Of a stretch of DNA of 64,000 nucleotides, positions 25,848-61,438 are shown in pieces (positions within the stretch are counted from its first letter, which is position 1; each line of letters starts with the position of its first letter). The notes below the pieces were generated by a model, which searched no databases, was not told the origin of the DNA, and saw only the letters and a list, made by a program, of their open reading frames with translations. Position numbers and translations under genes: made by a program. Source of the DNA: Mayamaea pseudoterrestris (taxonomy: Eukaryota; Bacillariophyta; Bacillariophyceae; Sellaphorales; Sellaphoraceae); the NCBI GenBank assembly GCA_027923505.1, contig BROI01000002.1, positions 2,046,001 through 2,110,000 of the forward strand, in the 5' to 3' direction.

Positions 25848-26253
25848 TTTTCCATGCGCCTTTTACACACTGGATATAGACCAGCACAAGGCACAAACGT
25901 GACAGGCTGATCGGTAGGTGTGCAAACAATAGTCGTTGCCTGGTAAATGTGCCAGGAAATAATGCTGACGAGCAAACGTTGGCGAAGCAAAAGCCCTAAG
26001 CGCTCATAAGTGTACCTCTATCTGGTCAGTCGGCGGCCTTGGAACATAAAAGAGATTCTGCTAACCTAGTGTGTCAACAAAATATTTAGTGTATACATCA
26101 TTCTTTCTTGTAAATTTTTTAACAGTCGTTGCCGTCGCTGGGCAACGTGCCTTGTATGTTAGCTGCGCATTCGCACCGGTACTAAAGCCTCACGACAAAA
26201 ACGAAACATCGCGCCTCCGCCGCCCCATACAACACTACATTTCACTATCAACC

Positions 26254-27135
26254 ATGGCAATCTATGGATTGCTACTATGGTTTACTTTGTATAATGCGAA
26301 AGTGTCATGCGCTTTCATCACCTCACACAGGGCGCCACTGGAAGTGAAGCCTCATGTTCCTGTCCATGCAGTGACTCCTCCGAGCAGTGCACTCGAAGAC
26401 GTGCGTGGTCGACGCGAGTTTGTCTCTTGGATATCTGGCGCTGCGGCATGTTTACTGATGCCTCTCCAATCTCGGGCGGCCGAAGATCTTGTCAATGAGG
26501 CCTCCACAACATTGTATAATCCTGATGGATCTTTGAAGCAAGACATCAGTGCAGAAGCCAAATTCAAGGCAGTACAATTTGATTGGAATCCCTCCAACGA
26601 TTACTTGGTAAATATCGATGGCCAAAACGCGCCAGGCACATCCAATGGCACCCAACTTCGACTTTCATACAAAATTCCAGAGAAATGGACGAAAAGCGCA
26701 GATTCCAACTACTACGATCCATCCGAAAATGCCAAGGCATGCGACCGCATTATTATATACCAAGCTCCCGATAACATTACTATGGATCGCTTGGAAAAGG
26801 CGTCAACGATTGGCATTGCCAAGGCTCTGGACGTGACGCAAGACTTGCAGTCGTTGTATTCATCCGATCTTGTATCCGGTCGGACCACGAAGAGAGACGG
26901 ACAAACATACTTTGAGTTTGACTGCGCCGTCGCGCCCAAAACGTGCGCCGACTCCAAGGAGGATCTTGGACTTGGCTTTTGTCCGTACGAAACAATTTAT
27001 CTTCTCTCCGCCACGCAAGTACGTGACAAGCTCTATGTGATGGCGATTGAAAGTAATAAACTGGAATGGAAGCGGGCGAATAGTGATCTGAAACGCGTCC
27101 GATCAACCTTTCGCGTCGAAGCGGTTGCATCATAA
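26254..27135 (+). CDS. PsbP-like thylakoid lumen protein
   Basis: A 293-aa protein with a three-part targeting region. A signal peptide (MAIYGLLLWFTLYNAKVSCA) is followed by FITSH for plastid entry. After a short transit stretch, GRREFVSWISGAAACLLMP and SRA form a twin-arginine thylakoid signal. The mature region has the PsbP fold pattern (LRLSYKIPEKWTK, then KACDRIIIYQAP, and the end LKRVRSTFRV). PsbP-like proteins help assemble or stabilise photosystem II or NDH; which one applies here is not shown. An in-frame extension to 26071 starts at GTG and has no ATG, so it was not used. A possible TATA element (CATAAAAG) lies near 26045. Confidence 0.85.
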   Translation: MAIYGLLLWFTLYNAKVSCAFITSHRAPLEVKPHVPVHAVTPPSSALEDVRGRREFVSWISGAAACLLMPLQSRAAEDLVNEASTTLYNPDGSLKQDISAEAKFKAVQFDWNPSNDYLVNIDGQNAPGTSNGTQLRLSYKIPEKWTKSADSNYYDPSENAKACDRIIIYQAPDNITMDRLEKASTIGIAKALDVTQDLQSLYSSDLVSGRTTKRDGQTYFEFDCAVAPKTCADSKEDLGLGFCPYETIYLLSATQVRDKLYVMAIESNKLEWKRANSDLKRVRSTFRVEAVAS

Positions 27136-32268: not shown

Positions 32269-32970
32269 CAGTGGGCGCGCCGTCGCGGCACAACAGAACT
32301 GCTGCGATGTGACGTTTCGATTTTGATGATCTCGACGCAACGACGAAAGCGAGGCGTGGGCACTGCCATCTGTGCATGTACCAATTACATCTTACAATAC
32401 GCTACAAAGAAGTATTATGTCGTCGGCCAAAGAAGAGACCAGGCAATGCTGCTTTAGCTTCTTGCTAGTTTGAGACGCGCAGCTTGGCCGTTAGCGTCTC
32501 ACCGTCGTGATTCTTGCAAGACCCATTGTCGCTCATTCGCAATTCCGATGACCGAGACGAAAGCAGGATTCAAGCTAATGGCGAGACGCTCGTCTGGCGT
32601 ATCATGCATTCGCTCGCAGGTTCCTTGTTCAAGAGGTTTGTTTTACCTCTAGTCATGGACCTTCCTTGAAACGATCAAGTCGAAATTCCCTTGGCGATCA
32701 ACATGTATTCAATAGCAGTTGAGGGTTCGTTGGGAGGTTGCGTTCGACAAATTTGGCCACTTGCAGGCGGCGAATCTTGGGCGGCGAGAGAAAGACTCGA
32801 AGCCTCATGTTTTTGTCGAACAAGTGAAGGAATAATGACTTATGAAGCAAGTACTCAAGATGAGCACTACACGTACTATGTTTCGAATTTGTGACAAGCG
32901 TTCCATTTGCAGACAGCATATATTCTTTTGCACACGCCCGCAGCCACCATCAAGCGAGTCGGTTGTTACC
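32269..32970. other. 702-bp stretch before the subtilisin cluster, no gene seen
   Basis: Short open frames of 60-73 codons here have no start context, targeting or family feature. It presumably holds the promoters of the sterol reductase (left) and first subtilisin (right). Confidence 0.5.
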
Positions 32971-34379
32971 ATGAAGGTGGTTGGTTACTTACTTCTTGTC
33001 TCTGGATTAATCCAAGTACAGTGTGCGCTTGATGTGCCGGAAGAGGATATCGCAGCTGATAGTCCAACGACCCGGCAAGAGCAGAGTTCCATTGCGAAAC
33101 CAAAACTCCATCAATCGAGCCGGGCTTTGCAACGAAACACGGAGCGCGTCCTTGTCAAATACTACAACGAACAAGGAAAGCAGCAAGTTCTCGCTCGGTC
33201 ATCGCGCATGTATCATCAATTCACCAAGAAGAATGTCATGGCTGTCGAAATTGACGTTCGAAACTTGCGCAAGCTCCGGCGAAATGCAAACATTGCTTCC
33301 ATTGAGCAGGACCGCATTTACGAGGAGCAAGGCTTTCACGAGTATACCTTGACCGAGGAGGAACAATCGCACCGCAAACTACAGCAAACCATGCCGTATG
33401 GAATCTCCATGGTGCAGGCGGACCAGTTGAACGTTGGAAGGTACCCAGTTGCTGTATGCATTGCCGATACTGGTGTCGCAAAAAAGCATCCCGATCTTCC
33501 AAAGGGACTCTTGAAGGGTGCAGACCGTAGATCAAACATTACCAATATGCGACTCAGATGGCGCAAGGACCGGCGCGGCCACGGAACACACGTGGCAGGC
33601 ACCATTACGGCAAAGGACAATGGCTTTGGCGTTCGGGGCATTGGCAAGATTCCCATTTTTGTGACGCGGGCACTTGATGATAGTGGCCAAGCCAGGGAAT
33701 CGGATGTTTATGAAGCGGTTGAACAATGTACTAAATCGAACGCGAGGATTGTCAGCATGAGTCTTGGTGGAGGGGGCATGTCGCAAACCTTCAAAGACCT
33801 TTTGACAAGCTTGTACGACAATAATGGCTTTTTGCTCGTTGGCGCCTCTGGAAACAATGGCGCCAATACCGTCAGCTGGCCAGCGGCTCATCCCAGGGTG
33901 ATTGGCGTCGGTGCTGTTCAAGATGATCGCTCGATTTGGCCTGCTTCCAACTATGGAAGCCAGGTTGAACTCAGCGCACCTGGTAAAATGATTTTGTCAA
34001 CCACCATTAATGCAGCGGGTTCATATGTATATAGGTGAGCATGCAGGCTTTTCAGCCACTCTATTGGCCATTGTGATTCATGTTTGCATGAACCCGTCTC
34101 ACAATTCCTCGCTTTAGCTTCTACTCGGGTACGAGCATGGCGACTCCACACGTGGCTGGTGTGGCGGCGCTGGTATGGAGTCACTTTCCGCAATGTACCA
34201 ATACGCAAATCAGGTACGCCTTGACGCGGACGGCACTGGACGGAGGCGCAAGCAGTTGCGACAGTCGCTACGGTTGGGGCATTGTACAGGCCAAGAATGC
34301 CTACAATTGGCTTTTGCGAAACCCTTGTGCATCTGCATCGTGGGGACAATCTTCCGAGCCTCAGGGAGGTTGTACATGA
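32971..34379 (+). CDS. Secreted subtilisin-like serine protease 1, two exons
   Basis: A 441-aa prepro-subtilase (S8 family) with the signal peptide MKVVGYLLLVSGLIQVQCA, chosen over an in-frame ATG at 32842 that would bury it. An I9-like propeptide follows (RVLVKYYNEQGKQQVL to about residue 120). The catalytic triad is Asp166 in CIADTG, His204 in RGHGTHVAG and Ser361 in YSGTSMATPHVAG; the oxyanion Asn lies in GASGNNG. Exons are 32971-34034 and 34118-34379, with the 83-bp intron splitting a Ser codon just before the catalytic serine block. The C-terminal 70 residues carry Cys residues (FPQCTNTQ, SSCDS, NPCAS, GGCT) that may form disulphides. It is probably an extracellular or vacuolar protease. 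Confidence 0.92.
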
Positions 34380-36671: not shown

Positions 36672-38058
36672 TTATATGTTTCCGCAGCCTCCTTGCGGAT
36701 TCGTGTTCTGGCCCCATCTTGCCCCATAACAAGGATTTCTGGCGAGCCAGTTGTATGCCGCCCTTGCCTGCACAATGCCTCGCCCGAAGAAACTATCGCA
36801 TCCCGCAGCTCCTGCATCAGAGGCGGTTACTGCGAGGGCATACCTTATCTGCCGGTTAGTGCACTGAGGAAAAGAGCTCCAAACCAATGCAGCGGCACCA
36901 GCTACATGTGGAGTAGCCATGCTAGTTCCTGTGTAGAAACTGTGGAATCGAAGGCGTGAAAAGTGTGAGGGGATCATCAAAAACGTCAACTGACGAACAT
37001 CGATTCTCGCACCTGTAGATAAACTGGCCAACAGTATTGATTGTCGTGGAAAGTATCATTCTACCGGGGGCACTCAGCTCGACTTGACTGCCGTAATTTG
37101 ATCCAGACCATATTGAGCGATCTTCTTGGACAGCGCTGACACCAATGACGCGCGGATGGGCTGCAGGCCATGCTACACTGTTTTTACCATCGTTGCCTGA
37201 AGCAGCTACCAACAGAATCCCCCTATCGTACAGTCCTGTAAGCAAGTCGTAGAAAGCCTGAGACATGCCACTTCCGCCGAGACTCATGCTGATGACTTTG
37301 GCTCCGGATTTGCCGCATTGTTGAACGGCAGCCATTATGTCTGACTCTCTCGCTAGGCCTTGGTCATCAAGAGCTCGTGTTACATAAACGGGAATATCCC
37401 CGATGCCTCTGACTCCATAACCATTGTTTCTTGCACTAATCGTCCCAGCAATATGCGTTCCATGGCCCCGCGCATCGATATTCCAATACAGTGCAGCCCC
37501 AGTGATGCTTGAGTATCGGCTGGCTCCTGTCAAGAGCCTTGCCTTTAGATCGGGATGGTTCAAAGCCACGCCAGTGTCTGCAACGCAAACTTGCACGGGA
37601 TAACGACCGACATTCAGCTGGTCTGCCTGGATCATGGAGATTCCATAAGGGACCTTTTGCTGAAGCCTCCGATGTTCATGCTCATCTTGTGTCATCGTAA
37701 GTTCCTCAAATCCCTGCTCTTCATATACGCGATCGTCTTCCACGGATTCGATATTGGGATTCAACAAAAGAGTTTCAAGGATCGCTTCATCAACCTGTAT
37801 TGCCAGCACGTCTCGCTCGTCAAAATCGTGATACATTCGAGTCGCATGCGCCAAAGCGTCCTCCTTGCCTTGTTCATTCGCATACTTGACCATGACTCGC
37901 ACCGAGTTTTCGTCAACTTGGCGGGCCGATCGATGCAAATGCGTTTGATCCTCTGGTTTCGAATCATTGACGGAATTCTCGCGTGCATCGAGCACGTCAA
38001 CACTTTTGCACTGCACTCCAAGGAGGCCCGCTAGGAGGAAAACAACAACAACCCGCAT
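36672..38058 (-). CDS. Secreted subtilisin-like serine protease 3, two exons
   Basis: A 437-aa subtilase, convergent with protease 2. Signal peptide MRVVVVFLLAGLLGVQC. Exons are 38058-37013 and 36939-36672 (73-bp intron, same place and phase as protease 1). The triad is Asp in CVADTG, His in RGHGTHIAG and Ser in YTGTSMATPHVAG; the oxyanion region reads AASGNDGKN. It shares with protease 1 the stretches QADQLNVGRYPV and ILSTTIN, so these two are the closest pair even though protease 2 lies between them and this gene is inverted. The start at 38058 was preferred over an in-frame ATG 26 codons upstream. Confidence 0.92.
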
Positions 38059-38836
38059 TGCAGCTGAGTGGCGTTGTTTGAAATTGTGTGTGGGACAAAG
38101 TTGTGGGACGGGCCGAAGCTTGAACTTCGAATTCAAATAAACAGCAGCATGTGTATGCTAATTTCGTCGCGTGTGTCTGTTGCTGGGCTTACCAAAAAAG
38201 TCTTCGGAAGTTTGTCATTCATTTTACTATCTGTTTTACTGTATACAATTGATATATATCATTATCTTCCCTTCGCAAAATTGACGTTTTAGCTGTTCTG
38301 ACTGCACGCTGCCCTTCGACAAAATAACAGGCTGCCAAATTTGGCTGCCATGTGAACTTGATCAGCGATTGGTCCCATTGGTCTTGGTCTGTAGACAACT
38401 GAAACTCGAATGAGTCTCCGCATTGCCATGTTGGCCGAAACCAAAAGGCTTGGTTGGGCGCGTTGATGCTTGCTACAGTAAGTTAGGGCCTTTTGAAACG
38501 TTGCGACACGATCTACCTTGACACTTGTTGTCGTAACGACTTTGTCTTTGCATGCACACGCATGGCATGAGTTCGTCATGACGACTATCACAAGATGTAT
38601 TTGAATTTTCGTCATTGCACAATGTACCCGAGAGGGACTGGCAATAGCTTGGCGTGCTACCGCTACGCGCGCATGACCTACTAGCAGTTGGCTCGACACC
38701 GATGCAGTGATTGTTATTGTCATCTTTCAAACCTTCAAACTACAACGTTAATCCTAAAATCAAACGTTAACAAGTATCAATCTACTGTACAAAAATGTGT
38801 TACCTGATTATGTAGTGTCGTTGCAATCGCACCTCC
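38059..38836. other. Intergenic stretch of 778 bp
   Basis: Between two minus-strand genes. Apart from a Cys-rich frame at 38473-38730 (listed separately), nothing convincing was found. It should hold the promoter of subtilisin 3. Confidence 0.5.
38473..38730 (-). CDS. Small Cys-rich hypothetical protein, uncertain
   Basis: An 85-codon frame beginning with ATG (MKDDNNNHCIGVEPTASRSC) has nine or ten Cys residues in its first 75 codons (including CNDEN, CDSRHD, MPCVCMQ and KCQGRSC). That is suggestive of a disulphide-rich peptide. There is no signal peptide, no family match is recognised, and it overlaps an alternative 144-codon frame (38289-38723) in another frame. A GT-AG combination that would add an exon could not be established. 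It may be chance. Confidence 0.2.
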   Translation of the reverse strand: MKDDNNNHCIGVEPTASRSCARSGSTPSYCQSLSGTLCNDENSNTSCDSRHDELMPCVCMQRQSRYDNKCQGRSCRNVSKGPNLL

Positions 38837-50806: not shown

Positions 50807-51583
50807 TCACCTCAAAAAGAAAACCACGGCTGCCACTCCGCATGCCACCAACGAACCTGCTGCCACAATGACAACCATTTTCTTATTCGTATCAGGCTCG
50901 GGCATTGGACTACTTCCAAATCCTTGAATCTTGTCCTTGAGCGCCATTTGCGGTGGCTTGTCCCTTGTGGATGCCACATCAAGTTCCGTCGGTTCAGGTA
51001 ATCCCTTGACCCTTGCAATCAGGACTTGTTTGTATAAGGCTGCTGCTGAAGAGTCGTATCGTTGTCGAATGGTGCTTGCACCAAAGGCAATGTCATGCTG
51101 CTCCAAAAAGGCTCGACAGCTTTGATTTCCTCCGACACGCATCAATGCAAGTTGTGGCTCCGTCCATTGATCCATAGTCACGGATCGAACAAAGGAAATG
51201 TGAGTTCCGAGCCCGCTGTACGCAAGCAACAAAGAAGGAATAGGTGAGGGTGCTGACAAACGAGATGAGTGACAGCGGCAACAAAACCAAGTCAAAGCCG
51301 AGCTGATACAAGCGGTCAAAGCCCCCGATACACACCGATGCTGCCCACTACATTGAAAACAAAAGAGTATACCGAGGCTGGGTGATCCCCAATCTGGATT
51401 AGAAGCTCCGCAGTCGATACATCGTTGATTGCCATCAAGTCGCTGAATTGCTTCGTATTCCTTAATGTTCATTTCGCAATCTGATGACATGTCGGCAAGC
51501 TTATCTTGTAGCGACGTGAATGCTTGTTGCGAGGGCAAAAGGGCGGCCTTGAGGCTGCTTCGAGGATCGTCAGAGACTTCCAT
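50807..51583 (-). CDS. Tail-anchored ArfGAP, two exons
   Basis: A 218-aa GTPase-activating protein for Arf GTPases. The zinc finger is C55, C58, C75 and C78 (CIDCGASNP ... CFQCSG), followed by the arginine finger R83 in QHRGLGTHISFVRS. Exons are 51583-51336 and 51215-50807. The 120-bp intron is GT-AG and splits the codon of the Arg finger; it is a multiple of three and contains no stop. The start at 51583 is the first ATG; the longer frame starts with TTG. The C-terminus ends in one hydrophobic helix, VVIVAAGSLVACGVAAVVFF, with an Arg at the end, so the protein is predicted to be tail-anchored (ER, Golgi or another cytosol-facing membrane). Between them lies a linker rich in Lys, Pro and Met. 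Confidence 0.88.
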   Translation of the reverse strand: MEVSDDPRSSLKAALLPSQQAFTSLQDKLADMSSDCEMNIKEYEAIQRLDGNQRCIDCGASNPDWGSPSLGILFCFQCSGQHRCVSGALTACISSALTWFCCRCHSSRLSAPSPIPSLLLAYSGLGTHISFVRSVTMDQWTEPQLALMRVGGNQSCRAFLEQHDIAFGASTIRQRYDSSAAALYKQVLIARVKGLPEPTELDVASTRDKPPQMALKDKIQGFGSSPMPEPDTNKKMVVIVAAGSLVACGVAAVVFFLR

Positions 51584-51763
51584 GGTGAATGTGGCGAATT
51601 GATGAGGTGCGCGAGATGTTTGCCTTGATGTCGCATGCGACACTTGTTTTTTGTCTTGAAAAGTCGCCAACGGACATGGCCACAGAATCTACGAACGGCG
51701 CAGAACGTTGAAGTGCAAGATCGCGCGGTTTGACCCATGCTCGAGATCTTTTCAAACTCCACC

Positions 51764-59181: not shown

Positions 59182-59758
59182 ACTGTACGTTATGATACGG
59201 CTGAACAACGATTATTATGTAAATACTGGTCGCTGCGTTACCCATGTATTTCGGTAATTGTCTCTTGATGTGACGGAATAGCTACTGGCCGAGGTGAGCG
59301 CCAATTTCTCGACTTGTCGATACTCTCCGATCACCCATCTTGCAAGGCAACAAAGTACCTTAATTACAAACACTATGATTTGCCCTACGCTCGTCGACAG
59401 CAGACAGATCGTCTTACGTAGTAAAGTATCCTTTAACTATCATACTCTGCTTTTATGGTTATGCTCGTCGCAATTCGCACGCTTTTACTTCTCGAGATCC
59501 CTCCATCGACGACACGGCAAAATATTTTCCTCTTCTTTCCTATAGATGCAGCCGCATTTGTTGAGCCAAGAATAGCGTCAAAGGCTACGGGAAGATCTAA
59601 GGTCAAGAGATTTGCTAACTGACTGAAGGGCGTTAGCATTGTTAACGGTGAAAACTCGCCTTTCAAACTCAAAATGACTTCTCTGACGTGGGCTTAAATA
59701 AGTGTGACCAAACGCTTTCACCTCACATCTTCTCGCATTCCAAGATCCATTCACCACC
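59182..59758. other. 577-bp intergenic stretch, no gene seen
   Basis: Two plus-strand genes flank it. Frames of 60-83 codons on either strand have no support. Probably terminator of one gene and promoter of the next. Confidence 0.5.
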
Positions 59759-61438
59759 ATGAGGGTTGCATCTCGATGCCGTCCTTCGTTCACAAATCGC
59801 TTTCTTCAATTTATTTTAGTGTTTAGTTACAGCAGCAATATTCCTGGTACTCAAGCTCTTTCTTCGCATACTCTTCTTTCGAAACGGCATGGCCATGACT
59901 TGCTTTCCGTCGAGCAATCCATCATACGCAACGATAGCCAAAGATTGACGACGCACGTTATCGGAAGCGACGAGTCGGGGACGGGCTGCATTGCCGGGCC
60001 AATCGTCTGCTGCAGTGTGTGTATCAAGCAAAGCTTACATGATTATCAAGCATTGCCGCACGTGAATGACGGCAAGCTTCTGGATGCTGCGACGCGACGA
60101 GACATCGTCAACCACGTCATGAAGCATCCCGAAATCTACGCCGTTGCAGTGGCTATCAGAACCAGTCAGCAGATTGATGCTTCAAGCGCGCAAACTGCCA
60201 GTCTTGATGGGCTTCGAGAGACAATCGAGTCGATCGTAGACCAAGCAAAGACGGACGAGTGTCAAACGTTCTACAGCATTGTCGACGGACACAAGTCGCC
60301 TCCACGCCTTTCCATTCCATCGAGACCCATGTTGCAGGCAGACGCCAAGGTTTATACCGTGGCCCTCGCATCCATTGTCGCACGAGTGACTCGTGACAAT
60401 CTCATGCTTGAACATTCCGCCCAATATCCGCCGTACGCCTTTGGCCGCAACGGAGGATACTCGTCGCCGATGCATGTGCAGGCGATTCACGCGCACGGAG
60501 TTTCGCCGATACACCGCAGAATGACCAAGCCAGTCAAGAATCGCAAAATTGGTGCGAGTAGTGGTCATGTTATTGATAGTGACGGCGGCATGACAAGGAG
60601 GGCGACATTGACTGGCATGACCGCAACATTTGCAGCGCTGGCATTGCAAATCAAACCGTCACTAACACTTGCCATGTCGATTGACCCAAAGACTAAAAGC
60701 TCGCTGCCAGACATTGGCGAGATTGAAGCGTCAGTTCCGACCGACTGGTCCATGATTGATAATCCATTCAATGACAATGCTGCGAGCAAACTGTTTGGTC
60801 GCTTGGATGCATCGAGCGACGCCAACTTTTACGCGGACCCACGATTCGTCGAGCACGTGGATGCCCAAGCTGTCGAAAGCATGACCAAGTATGTTTCTGA
60901 TACAGTCGCTGGGAAGGATGCAATACTTGATCTATGTACAAGCTGGACGAGTCACATTCGTGCATCCAACACTGACGAAATGTTGCTTCGACGAGTCGCC
61001 GGACTAGGAATGAACCAACGAGAGCTCGATGCAAACGCAGCATTGACGGAGCGAATCGTGCAAGACTTGAACGAGCAACCAGTATTGCCGTATGAGAGTA
61101 ATTCGTTTGTTATTGTGCTTTGCCAATTGAGCATTGACTACTTGACCAAGCCGCTGCAAGTTTGCGTAGAGATTGCTCGCGTTTTGAAACCAGGTGGATC
61201 CGTTCATGTCATCTTTTCGAACCGACTCTTTCTGCAAAAGGCAGTGGCAGTATGGACTGGAGCTGATGACAATGATCATTGCTTCATTGTTTCATCCTAT
61301 CTGCACTTTTGTCGCGATGGATTGTATAAAGATATACGAGCAGTGGATTTGTCGACGCGAAACCGTTCTGGTCGCATTGTTGGTGATCCACTCTACGTTG
61401 TCACTGCCACAAAAGCTGCCGCTGCTGCTGCTTCTTAA
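59759..61438 (+). CDS. Fusion of RNase HII and a thylakoid-signal-bearing methyltransferase-like domain
   Basis: One uninterrupted frame of 559 codons with three parts. (1) A signal-type N-terminus (hydrophobic NRFLQFILVFSYS, then TQA|LSS). (2) Residues about 65-260: bacterial-type RNase HII, which cuts RNA in RNA/DNA hybrids. The acidic residues are D71/E72 (GSDESGTGCIAGPIV), D176 (SIVDG) and D195 (QADAKVYTVALASIVARVTRD), followed by AIHAHGVSPIHRR. (3) From residue 278, GMTRRATLTGMTATFAALA with SLTLA is a twin-arginine thylakoid signal, then a SAM-methyltransferase-like domain (FYADPRFVEHVD, DLCTSWTSHI, GLGMN, VLKPGGSVHVIFSNRLF) like a plant and algal chloroplast family. The join has no stop and no evident intron. 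Presumably it is cleaved after import so that the two halves act in stroma and lumen, or translation also starts at the internal ATG (60590). Confidence 0.82.
   Translation: MRVASRCRPSFTNRFLQFILVFSYSSNIPGTQALSSHTLLSKRHGHDLLSVEQSIIRNDSQRLTTHVIGSDESGTGCIAGPIVCCSVCIKQSLHDYQALPHVNDGKLLDAATRRDIVNHVMKHPEIYAVAVAIRTSQQIDASSAQTASLDGLRETIESIVDQAKTDECQTFYSIVDGHKSPPRLSIPSRPMLQADAKVYTVALASIVARVTRDNLMLEHSAQYPPYAFGRNGGYSSPMHVQAIHAHGVSPIHRRMTKPVKNRKIGASSGHVIDSDGGMTRRATLTGMTATFAALALQIKPSLTLAMSIDPKTKSSLPDIGEIEASVPTDWSMIDNPFNDNAASKLFGRLDASSDANFYADPRFVEHVDAQAVESMTKYVSDTVAGKDAILDLCTSWTSHIRASNTDEMLLRRVAGLGMNQRELDANAALTERIVQDLNEQPVLPYESNSFVIVLCQLSIDYLTKPLQVCVEIARVLKPGGSVHVIFSNRLFLQKAVAVWTGADDNDHCFIVSSYLHFCRDGLYKDIRAVDLSTRNRSGRIVGDPLYVVTATKAAAAAAS

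Follow-up and report, generated by a model that had tools for sequence, protein, structure and literature searches.

The locus described here raises the question of what a segment resembling a thylakoid lumen signal would be doing in the middle of a precursor, since functional Tat signals normally lie near the N-terminus. The window (i.e. the whole 64,000-nt stretch of Mayamaea pseudoterrestris DNA that was analysed) holds on its forward strand a single open frame of 559 codons and a stop (from the ATG at 59759 to the stop at 61438), in which an RNase HII domain is followed by a Tat-like segment and then by a SAM-methyltransferase domain; 277 residues precede the Tat-like segment, which is thus not close to the N-terminus. 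We favour, at a probability of roughly 0.4, a genuine fusion, in which the gene of an organelle RNase HII merged in frame with a methyltransferase gene and the old Tat presequence was kept as a linker that may still split the precursor.

One frame with two enzyme domains

An earlier note on this DNA had claimed that one frame joins an RNase HII with a SAM-methyltransferase, and this is borne out by the frame itself, by Pfam, by codon statistics and by structure models (Table 1). Pfam recognises RNase_HII at residues 68-254 (E 4e-25, 89.3 bits against a cut-off of 25.8) and Methyltransf_11 at residues 415-482 (E 4e-8, 34.3 bits against 21.2). AlphaFold2 models were made of the two halves apart and the whole protein was left out, because a joint two-domain alignment misplaced the C-terminal halves of the RNase HII sequences; the alignments drew on 15 of the 19 methyltransferase loci (A7) and on 21 of the 80 viral RNase HII loci (A8). 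In these two half models both enzymes fold with good confidence, and a low-confidence linker lies between them.

Table 1. Features of the fusion gene, in window coordinates
Feature	Position	Strand	Remarks
Fusion open reading frame	59759..61438	+	559 codons + stop; unbroken dicodon coding segment 59947-61435
N-terminal leader, residues 1-59	59759..59935	+	possible organelle leader; outside dicodon segment; low model confidence
RNase HII domain, residues about 60-258	59936..60532	+	Pfam, conserved columns, model, Foldseek
Linker, residues 259-334	60533..60760	+	low confidence in the two half models; probably disordered
Tat-like segment MTRR...LTLAMS, residues 278-307	60590..60679	+	60590 is also an internal ATG
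SAM-methyltransferase domain, residues about 335-554	60761..61420	+	Pfam, conserved columns, model, Foldseek
Possible in-frame 84-nt intron that would excise the RR motif (disfavoured)	60552..60635	+	pair score 0.8 (acceptor -2.8); codon use and composition like those of exons
Possible optional in-frame 354-nt intron that would lose residues 265-383 (signal and methyltransferase start)	60552..60905	+	pair score 9.5

Coding signal through the join

From 60509 to 60733 stops occur in both other frames, and codon statistics speak for a coding sequence across the join, where the score nevertheless dips. The 30-codon score (reference values: coding mean 0.167, SD 0.126; noncoding mean -0.225) falls to 0.00-0.04 in intervals starting at 60509-60599 and dips likewise in the leader. 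The 28 disputed codons (60552-60635) score 7.7 as compared to an in-frame mean of 8.1 (SD 4.8), a level that 11.4% of stop-free noncoding stretches also attain, and their composition is exon-like (GC 0.51 vs. 0.41 in 19 intron candidates). These data bear on the notion that two adjacent genes were joined artificially by a sequencing or assembly error, be it the loss of a stop or a frameshift between them. The join is known from one assembly, and with stops in both other linker frames a one-base error could matter; however, the coding signal keeps one frame through the join, and a second gene that began on its own at the RR segment would have no plastid leader, so that we regard such an artefact as very improbable.

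An intron between the two domains, which the earlier note had named as evidence against its reading, finds a well-scoring candidate at 60552-60905, yet this region is coding-like. Under this alternative, which we judge unlikely, the functions would be parted by an in-frame intron that is removed from only some of the messages (60552-60905, with 60552-60635 as the less likely choice): the spliced message would encode RNase HII with a disrupted methyltransferase and no signal, the unspliced one the fusion. The donor at 60552 scores 3.6 (within the range of 2.7-7.4 spanned by 23 bridged intron candidates) and the acceptor at 60905 scores 5.9; among 77 other frames, one has an in-frame pair with a sum as high as their 9.5 (none of the 45 with 400-750 codons has), and two have such a pair when any phase is allowed, several intron length ranges having been tried in the pair scoring. 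In the intron model 61 exon pairs had options, and 23 of them score >4 (19 of these being ≤180 nt); these 23 scale-setting candidates are unverified, some of them (above all the longest) being probably wrong. Earlier intron models were dropped as noisy. Weak scores do not exclude introns, since a homology-supported intron in locus L007 scores just 0.0, and a stop-free in-frame intron is known in the window from an ArfGAP-like gene. Against splicing stands the coding-like character of 60552-60905 (0.301 bits per codon, GC 0.506), whose excision would cut conserved methyltransferase residues; it could therefore hardly be more than an optional intron, a constitutive one being unlikely. Moreover, the score of the exon-like 84-nt pair is commonplace (of 77 ordinary frames, at least 51 do as well or better), and no intron that would link leader and signal region scores above -5.7. 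To judge from the sequence, it is possible that splicing of 60552-60905 yields an isoform without the signal.

The earlier note had also proposed that the internal ATG at 60590 gives a second product, whose N-terminal RR and hydrophobic segment would then be an ER or Tat signal. M278 does directly precede the RR motif; on the other hand, 59759-60589 holds 16 ATGs, counting the true start, and six of the 16 are in frame; the first (59759) has the context ACCACC, an in-frame stop ending upstream at 59707. We consider this the least probable of the explanations weighed here.

An alternative first exon upstream was sought and yielded one weak and unconvincing candidate (score 2.6, 696 nt). Elsewhere in the window, the ArfGAP-like frame (50807-51670, -) reads through its 120-nt intron without a stop, showing that open frames here can hide introns, and two similar subtilase-like genes in opposite orientation (32842-34038, +; 36922-38136, -) both seem to contain an intron, at about the same place.

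The RNase HII half

The claim that this half has all its acidic residues holds, as the four catalytic carboxylates (D71, E72, D176 and D195) are present. Together with the fold, the DSK lysine and the junction-recognising tyrosine (Y234, a position at which Y is found in all 89 aligned relatives that have a letter), they are shared with bacterial RNase HII (rnhB, type 2 RNase H), from which the fusion differs by its leader, its C-terminal fusion, a score of 145.5 bits with the best NCBIfam equivalog RNase HII model (cut-off 167) and two altered motifs. GRG reads GTG with the glycines kept (among 91 relatives R in 75, T in 4), and DSK reads DGK with the lysine kept (S in 89 of 89 relatives), both motifs being variable or partial markers. 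The GRG arginine is absent also from 16 of the 91 bacterial and viral-contig sequences (L030-L040, L061-L140), where V, T, L, A, E or M replaces it.

The GTG motif, which we took to be RNase HIII-like, prompted us to consider an RNase HIII; this was rejected, as NCBIfam rnhC gives just 26.9 bits and the junction tyrosine is kept. Type 3 RNase H enzymes are described as being without this tyrosine, and in Thermotoga maritima RNase HII the exchange R22A leaves activity unaltered on most substrates while Y163F is severe (excerpts of PMC3025331). Given the mildness of R22A and the severity of Y163F, it is plausible that the RNase HII half would be an active junction nuclease. A degenerate enzyme was likewise rejected, since the domain is diverged, yet not dead by the column test: over the 91 sequences (89 of which have a letter at most near-invariant columns) it keeps 26 of the 29 near-invariant columns, as compared to 28 in the C1 paralogue. 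Against 11 bacterial RNase HII sequences (from 11 of the 13 genomes searched) the fusion keeps 31 and the C1 gene 43 of 52 columns, and S105G, A203L and K209R remain unusual. The AlphaFold2 model is mostly confident from residue 61 or so to 258 (with a dip near residues 91-100), and its best Foldseek matches are the RNase HII enzymes of T. maritima, Staphylococcus aureus and Escherichia coli.

The genome (30.6 Mb, 41 contigs) has two other family members: a gene on C8 that we read as resembling eukaryotic RNase H2A, and the bacterial-type RNase HII on C1, which has a GGF leader and lies closer to the family consensus than the fusion's domain. In a 30-row tree the RNase HII half forms the longest end branch (about 4 vs. 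1.41 for C1). The C1 gene (L003:661-1815) carries an insertion of ~40 residues inside its domain, possibly an unspliced intron.

Viral contigs scanned with A5 gave 119 RNase HII relatives, of which the best 80 were retained; scans of such contigs with P0001, A3 and A4 found no relatives. Among the best 80 of 119 viral and 11 bacterial loci, the two frames that run furthest past the domain start (L123, L126) and the two with the longest stretch ahead of it (L039, L040) were compared with Pfam; at E 0.01 all four gave RNase_HII alone. L123 and L126 extend about 90-100 codons past the others after the domain, and Pfam has nothing for this extension at E 0.01.

The methyltransferase half

By Pfam, conserved columns and model, residues ~335-554 are a SAM-methyltransferase of a family that stands alone in bacteria. 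The model is confident from residue ~335 and its Foldseek matches are SAM methyltransferases. Among 48 candidate stretches of a prokaryote collection, 19 loci (six of them near-identical Chloroflexota rows) encode stand-alone Methyltransf_11 relatives (Chloroflexota, Spirosoma, Cyanobacteria and others) at 35-44% identity. The fusion keeps 51 of the 56 columns conserved among them (C25 paralogue 47, C7 paralogue 48), and, unlike the fusion, none has an RNase HII beside the methyltransferase domain in the frames read. Pfam scans of four of the longer bacterial frames (L016, L025, L026 and L028) returned only methyltransferase families.

Within the genome, the paralogues on C25 and C7 are close (40 and 46% identity) and the one on C2 is distant; those on C7 and C2 have leaders that look plastid-like by eye. 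A 22-row tree places the three algal copies on one side of a weak branch (support 60/81), with the fusion's domain as the longest end branch (2.6 vs. 0.62 and 1.25 for the paralogues). The bacterial relatives L025, L026 and L028 are extended at the N-terminus by a long stretch without a Pfam domain (E 0.01); an FKBP-like identity for these stretches was dropped, as Pfam shows no such domain at that threshold. A frame of 672 aa (L009:559-2577, -) combines a plastid-like leader and a distant methyltransferase domain with a long C-terminal part lacking a Pfam match (E 0.01).

N-terminal leader and destination

The leader has a basic start and a short hydrophobic run (FLQFILVF) followed by TQA/LSSHTLLSKRH; its first 47 aa include 9 K/R/H and 1 D/E, and its best 13-residue hydropathy is 1.21. 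Dicodon coding support begins only at 59947 and thus leaves out the leader. The aromatic +1 residue of complex-plastid bipartite leaders is absent (TQA/LSS, with no F), whereas F occupies +1 in nine other leaders of this genome (chosen by eye); a PsbQ-like gene (L145) is without a clear F, and leucine at +1 is tolerated in some diatom leaders. We treat this stretch as a possible organelle leader. Plastid import of the fusion is plausible on the strength of the plastid-like leaders (by eye) of the C7 and C2 methyltransferase paralogues, its own leader being atypical. Of the description 'plastid-type RNase HII' given in the earlier note, the enzyme stands, and the label 'plastid-type' is unconfirmed in view of this atypical leader and of the red-algal enzyme: excerpts of PMC3914683 report that RNase HII of Cyanidioschyzon merolae localises to mitochondria, and that the RNase HII enzymes of red algae and green plants are related to neither cyanobacterial nor alpha-proteobacterial ones.

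The Tat-like segment

Residues 278-307 comprise RR, an uncharged hydrophobic core (RR and core, as in Tat lumen substrates, at residues 280-298), KP and then LTLAMS, where the presumed cleavage end reads AMS, an ambiguous match to AxA. The segment resembles RREAAFAMLGAIWASTTTPYAAHA and SRREAMAAAGAAVGAAIVPLAANA, from two of the three PsbQ-like genes of the genome, and RREFVSWISGAAACLLMPLQSRA, from the PsbP-like gene in the window, with which it shares RR, the uncharged hydrophobic core and proline plus small residues towards the cleavage site; their RR stands near residue 41 and 70 (PsbQ-like frames) and 116 (PsbP-like), as opposed to 280 in the fusion. The third PsbQ-like gene has TRSGFF in place of RR.

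A Tat rule devised after the segment was seen (RR, 13 uncharged residues of mean hydropathy ≥1.2, AxA-like end) matched 10 times (two of the matches overlap) in 113 other frames totalling 53,502 aa, and shuffled proteins gave 5.46 matches per 100,000 aa. At these rates about 0.03-0.10 matches would be expected in a protein of 559 aa, and about 0.004-0.014 in a linker of 76 residues. By this rule such segments are uncommon, not rare, and the place between two domains adds weight. The likeness is better than chance and marks a candidate signal only: of the Tat-type signal that had been proposed between the domains, the RR segment and its resemblance hold, and Tat function is not confirmed.

Proposed origin and processing

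In the favoured scenario, a nuclear gene for an organelle-directed RNase HII would have merged in frame with a downstream methyltransferase gene, whose former presequence, ending in a Tat-type lumen signal, would have survived as the linker. The N-terminal leader would carry the whole precursor into the plastid, where the internal RR segment might still be recognised at the thylakoid, with cleavage behind it, either by the thylakoid processing peptidase or, at an earlier stage, by a protease of the stroma. RNase HII would be left in the stroma, removing ribonucleotides or primers from plastid DNA, and the methyltransferase would be released into the lumen. The plastid polyprotein put forward in the earlier note is possible; that note took up neither a relic signal nor a release of the products by cleavage at the signal itself.

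That the internal signal works behind a folded 200-residue enzyme, cleavage giving a stromal nuclease and a lumenal methyltransferase, is a tentative proposition, to which we give somewhat less credence than to the fusion scenario as a whole. Tat signal peptides bind as a hairpin (excerpts of PMC7317946), and a precursor linked covalently to the receptor complex is reported to be transported (excerpts of the review PMC9251779). Taken together, these two observations make a tethered N-terminal side not absurd and imply that cleavage alone could part the products without a stromal protease. A natural Tat signal behind a folded domain was not seen in the literature, which was searched non-systematically, and one literature search returned no paper on SAM in the lumen. 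We know of no supply of SAM to this compartment. If the signal works in place, Tat targeting needs no free N-terminus, two plastid compartments can receive different enzymes through a single import event, and a SAM-dependent enzyme is located in the thylakoid lumen.

The chief rival accepts the fusion and takes the RR segment for a dead relic of the former presequence, the whole protein residing in one compartment (stroma or mitochondrial matrix) with its two enzymes tethered; we hold this to be rather unlikely, less so than splicing or the other alternatives. The internal position of the segment and its atypical cleavage site are in line with a relic, as is the mitochondrial RNase HII of C. 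merolae (excerpts of PMC3914683). Furthermore, both halves stand on the longest end branch of their respective trees, which suggests shifted or relaxed constraint. Against it, the segment still has its RR, its uncharged hydrophobic core and its small-residue end though both halves changed fast, be it before or after the fusion. If it is a relic, the locus offers a clear snapshot of two organelle genes merging.

Related systems and Tat components in the genome

Fused or polyprotein organelle genes are a known kind: the light-harvesting polyproteins of euglenids and dinoflagellates, and the rpl32-SOD merger with its shared leader, have several products behind one import leader. The fusion resembles them in the possible release of several products behind one leader; to our knowledge, none of them places a Tat signal behind an unrelated folded enzyme, and we consider the internal Tat-like segment behind such an enzyme to be the new element. 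No report of an RNase HII-methyltransferase fusion was seen in the open-licence literature, in searches that did not pair the two enzymes.

The genome encodes two nuclear TatA-like proteins, both with FAP-type leaders, so that part of the Tat machinery is present. Neither TatC nor the RuBisCO large subunit has a match among the 41 contigs; the absence of TatC from the assembly is probably due to missing organelle contigs, with which that of the RuBisCO large subunit is consistent. PsbQ matches number three, and PsbP matches occur at six places. Taken by themselves, these plastid-type genes and the TatA-like pair point to a probable photosynthetic alga with a complex plastid, perhaps an ochrophyte. 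One of the PsbP matches lies in the window (26071-27135, +) and is a PsbP-like lumen protein with an RR signal and an F-type plastid leader; of the five further PsbP matches, two lie on C2, 20 kb apart and with equal scores.
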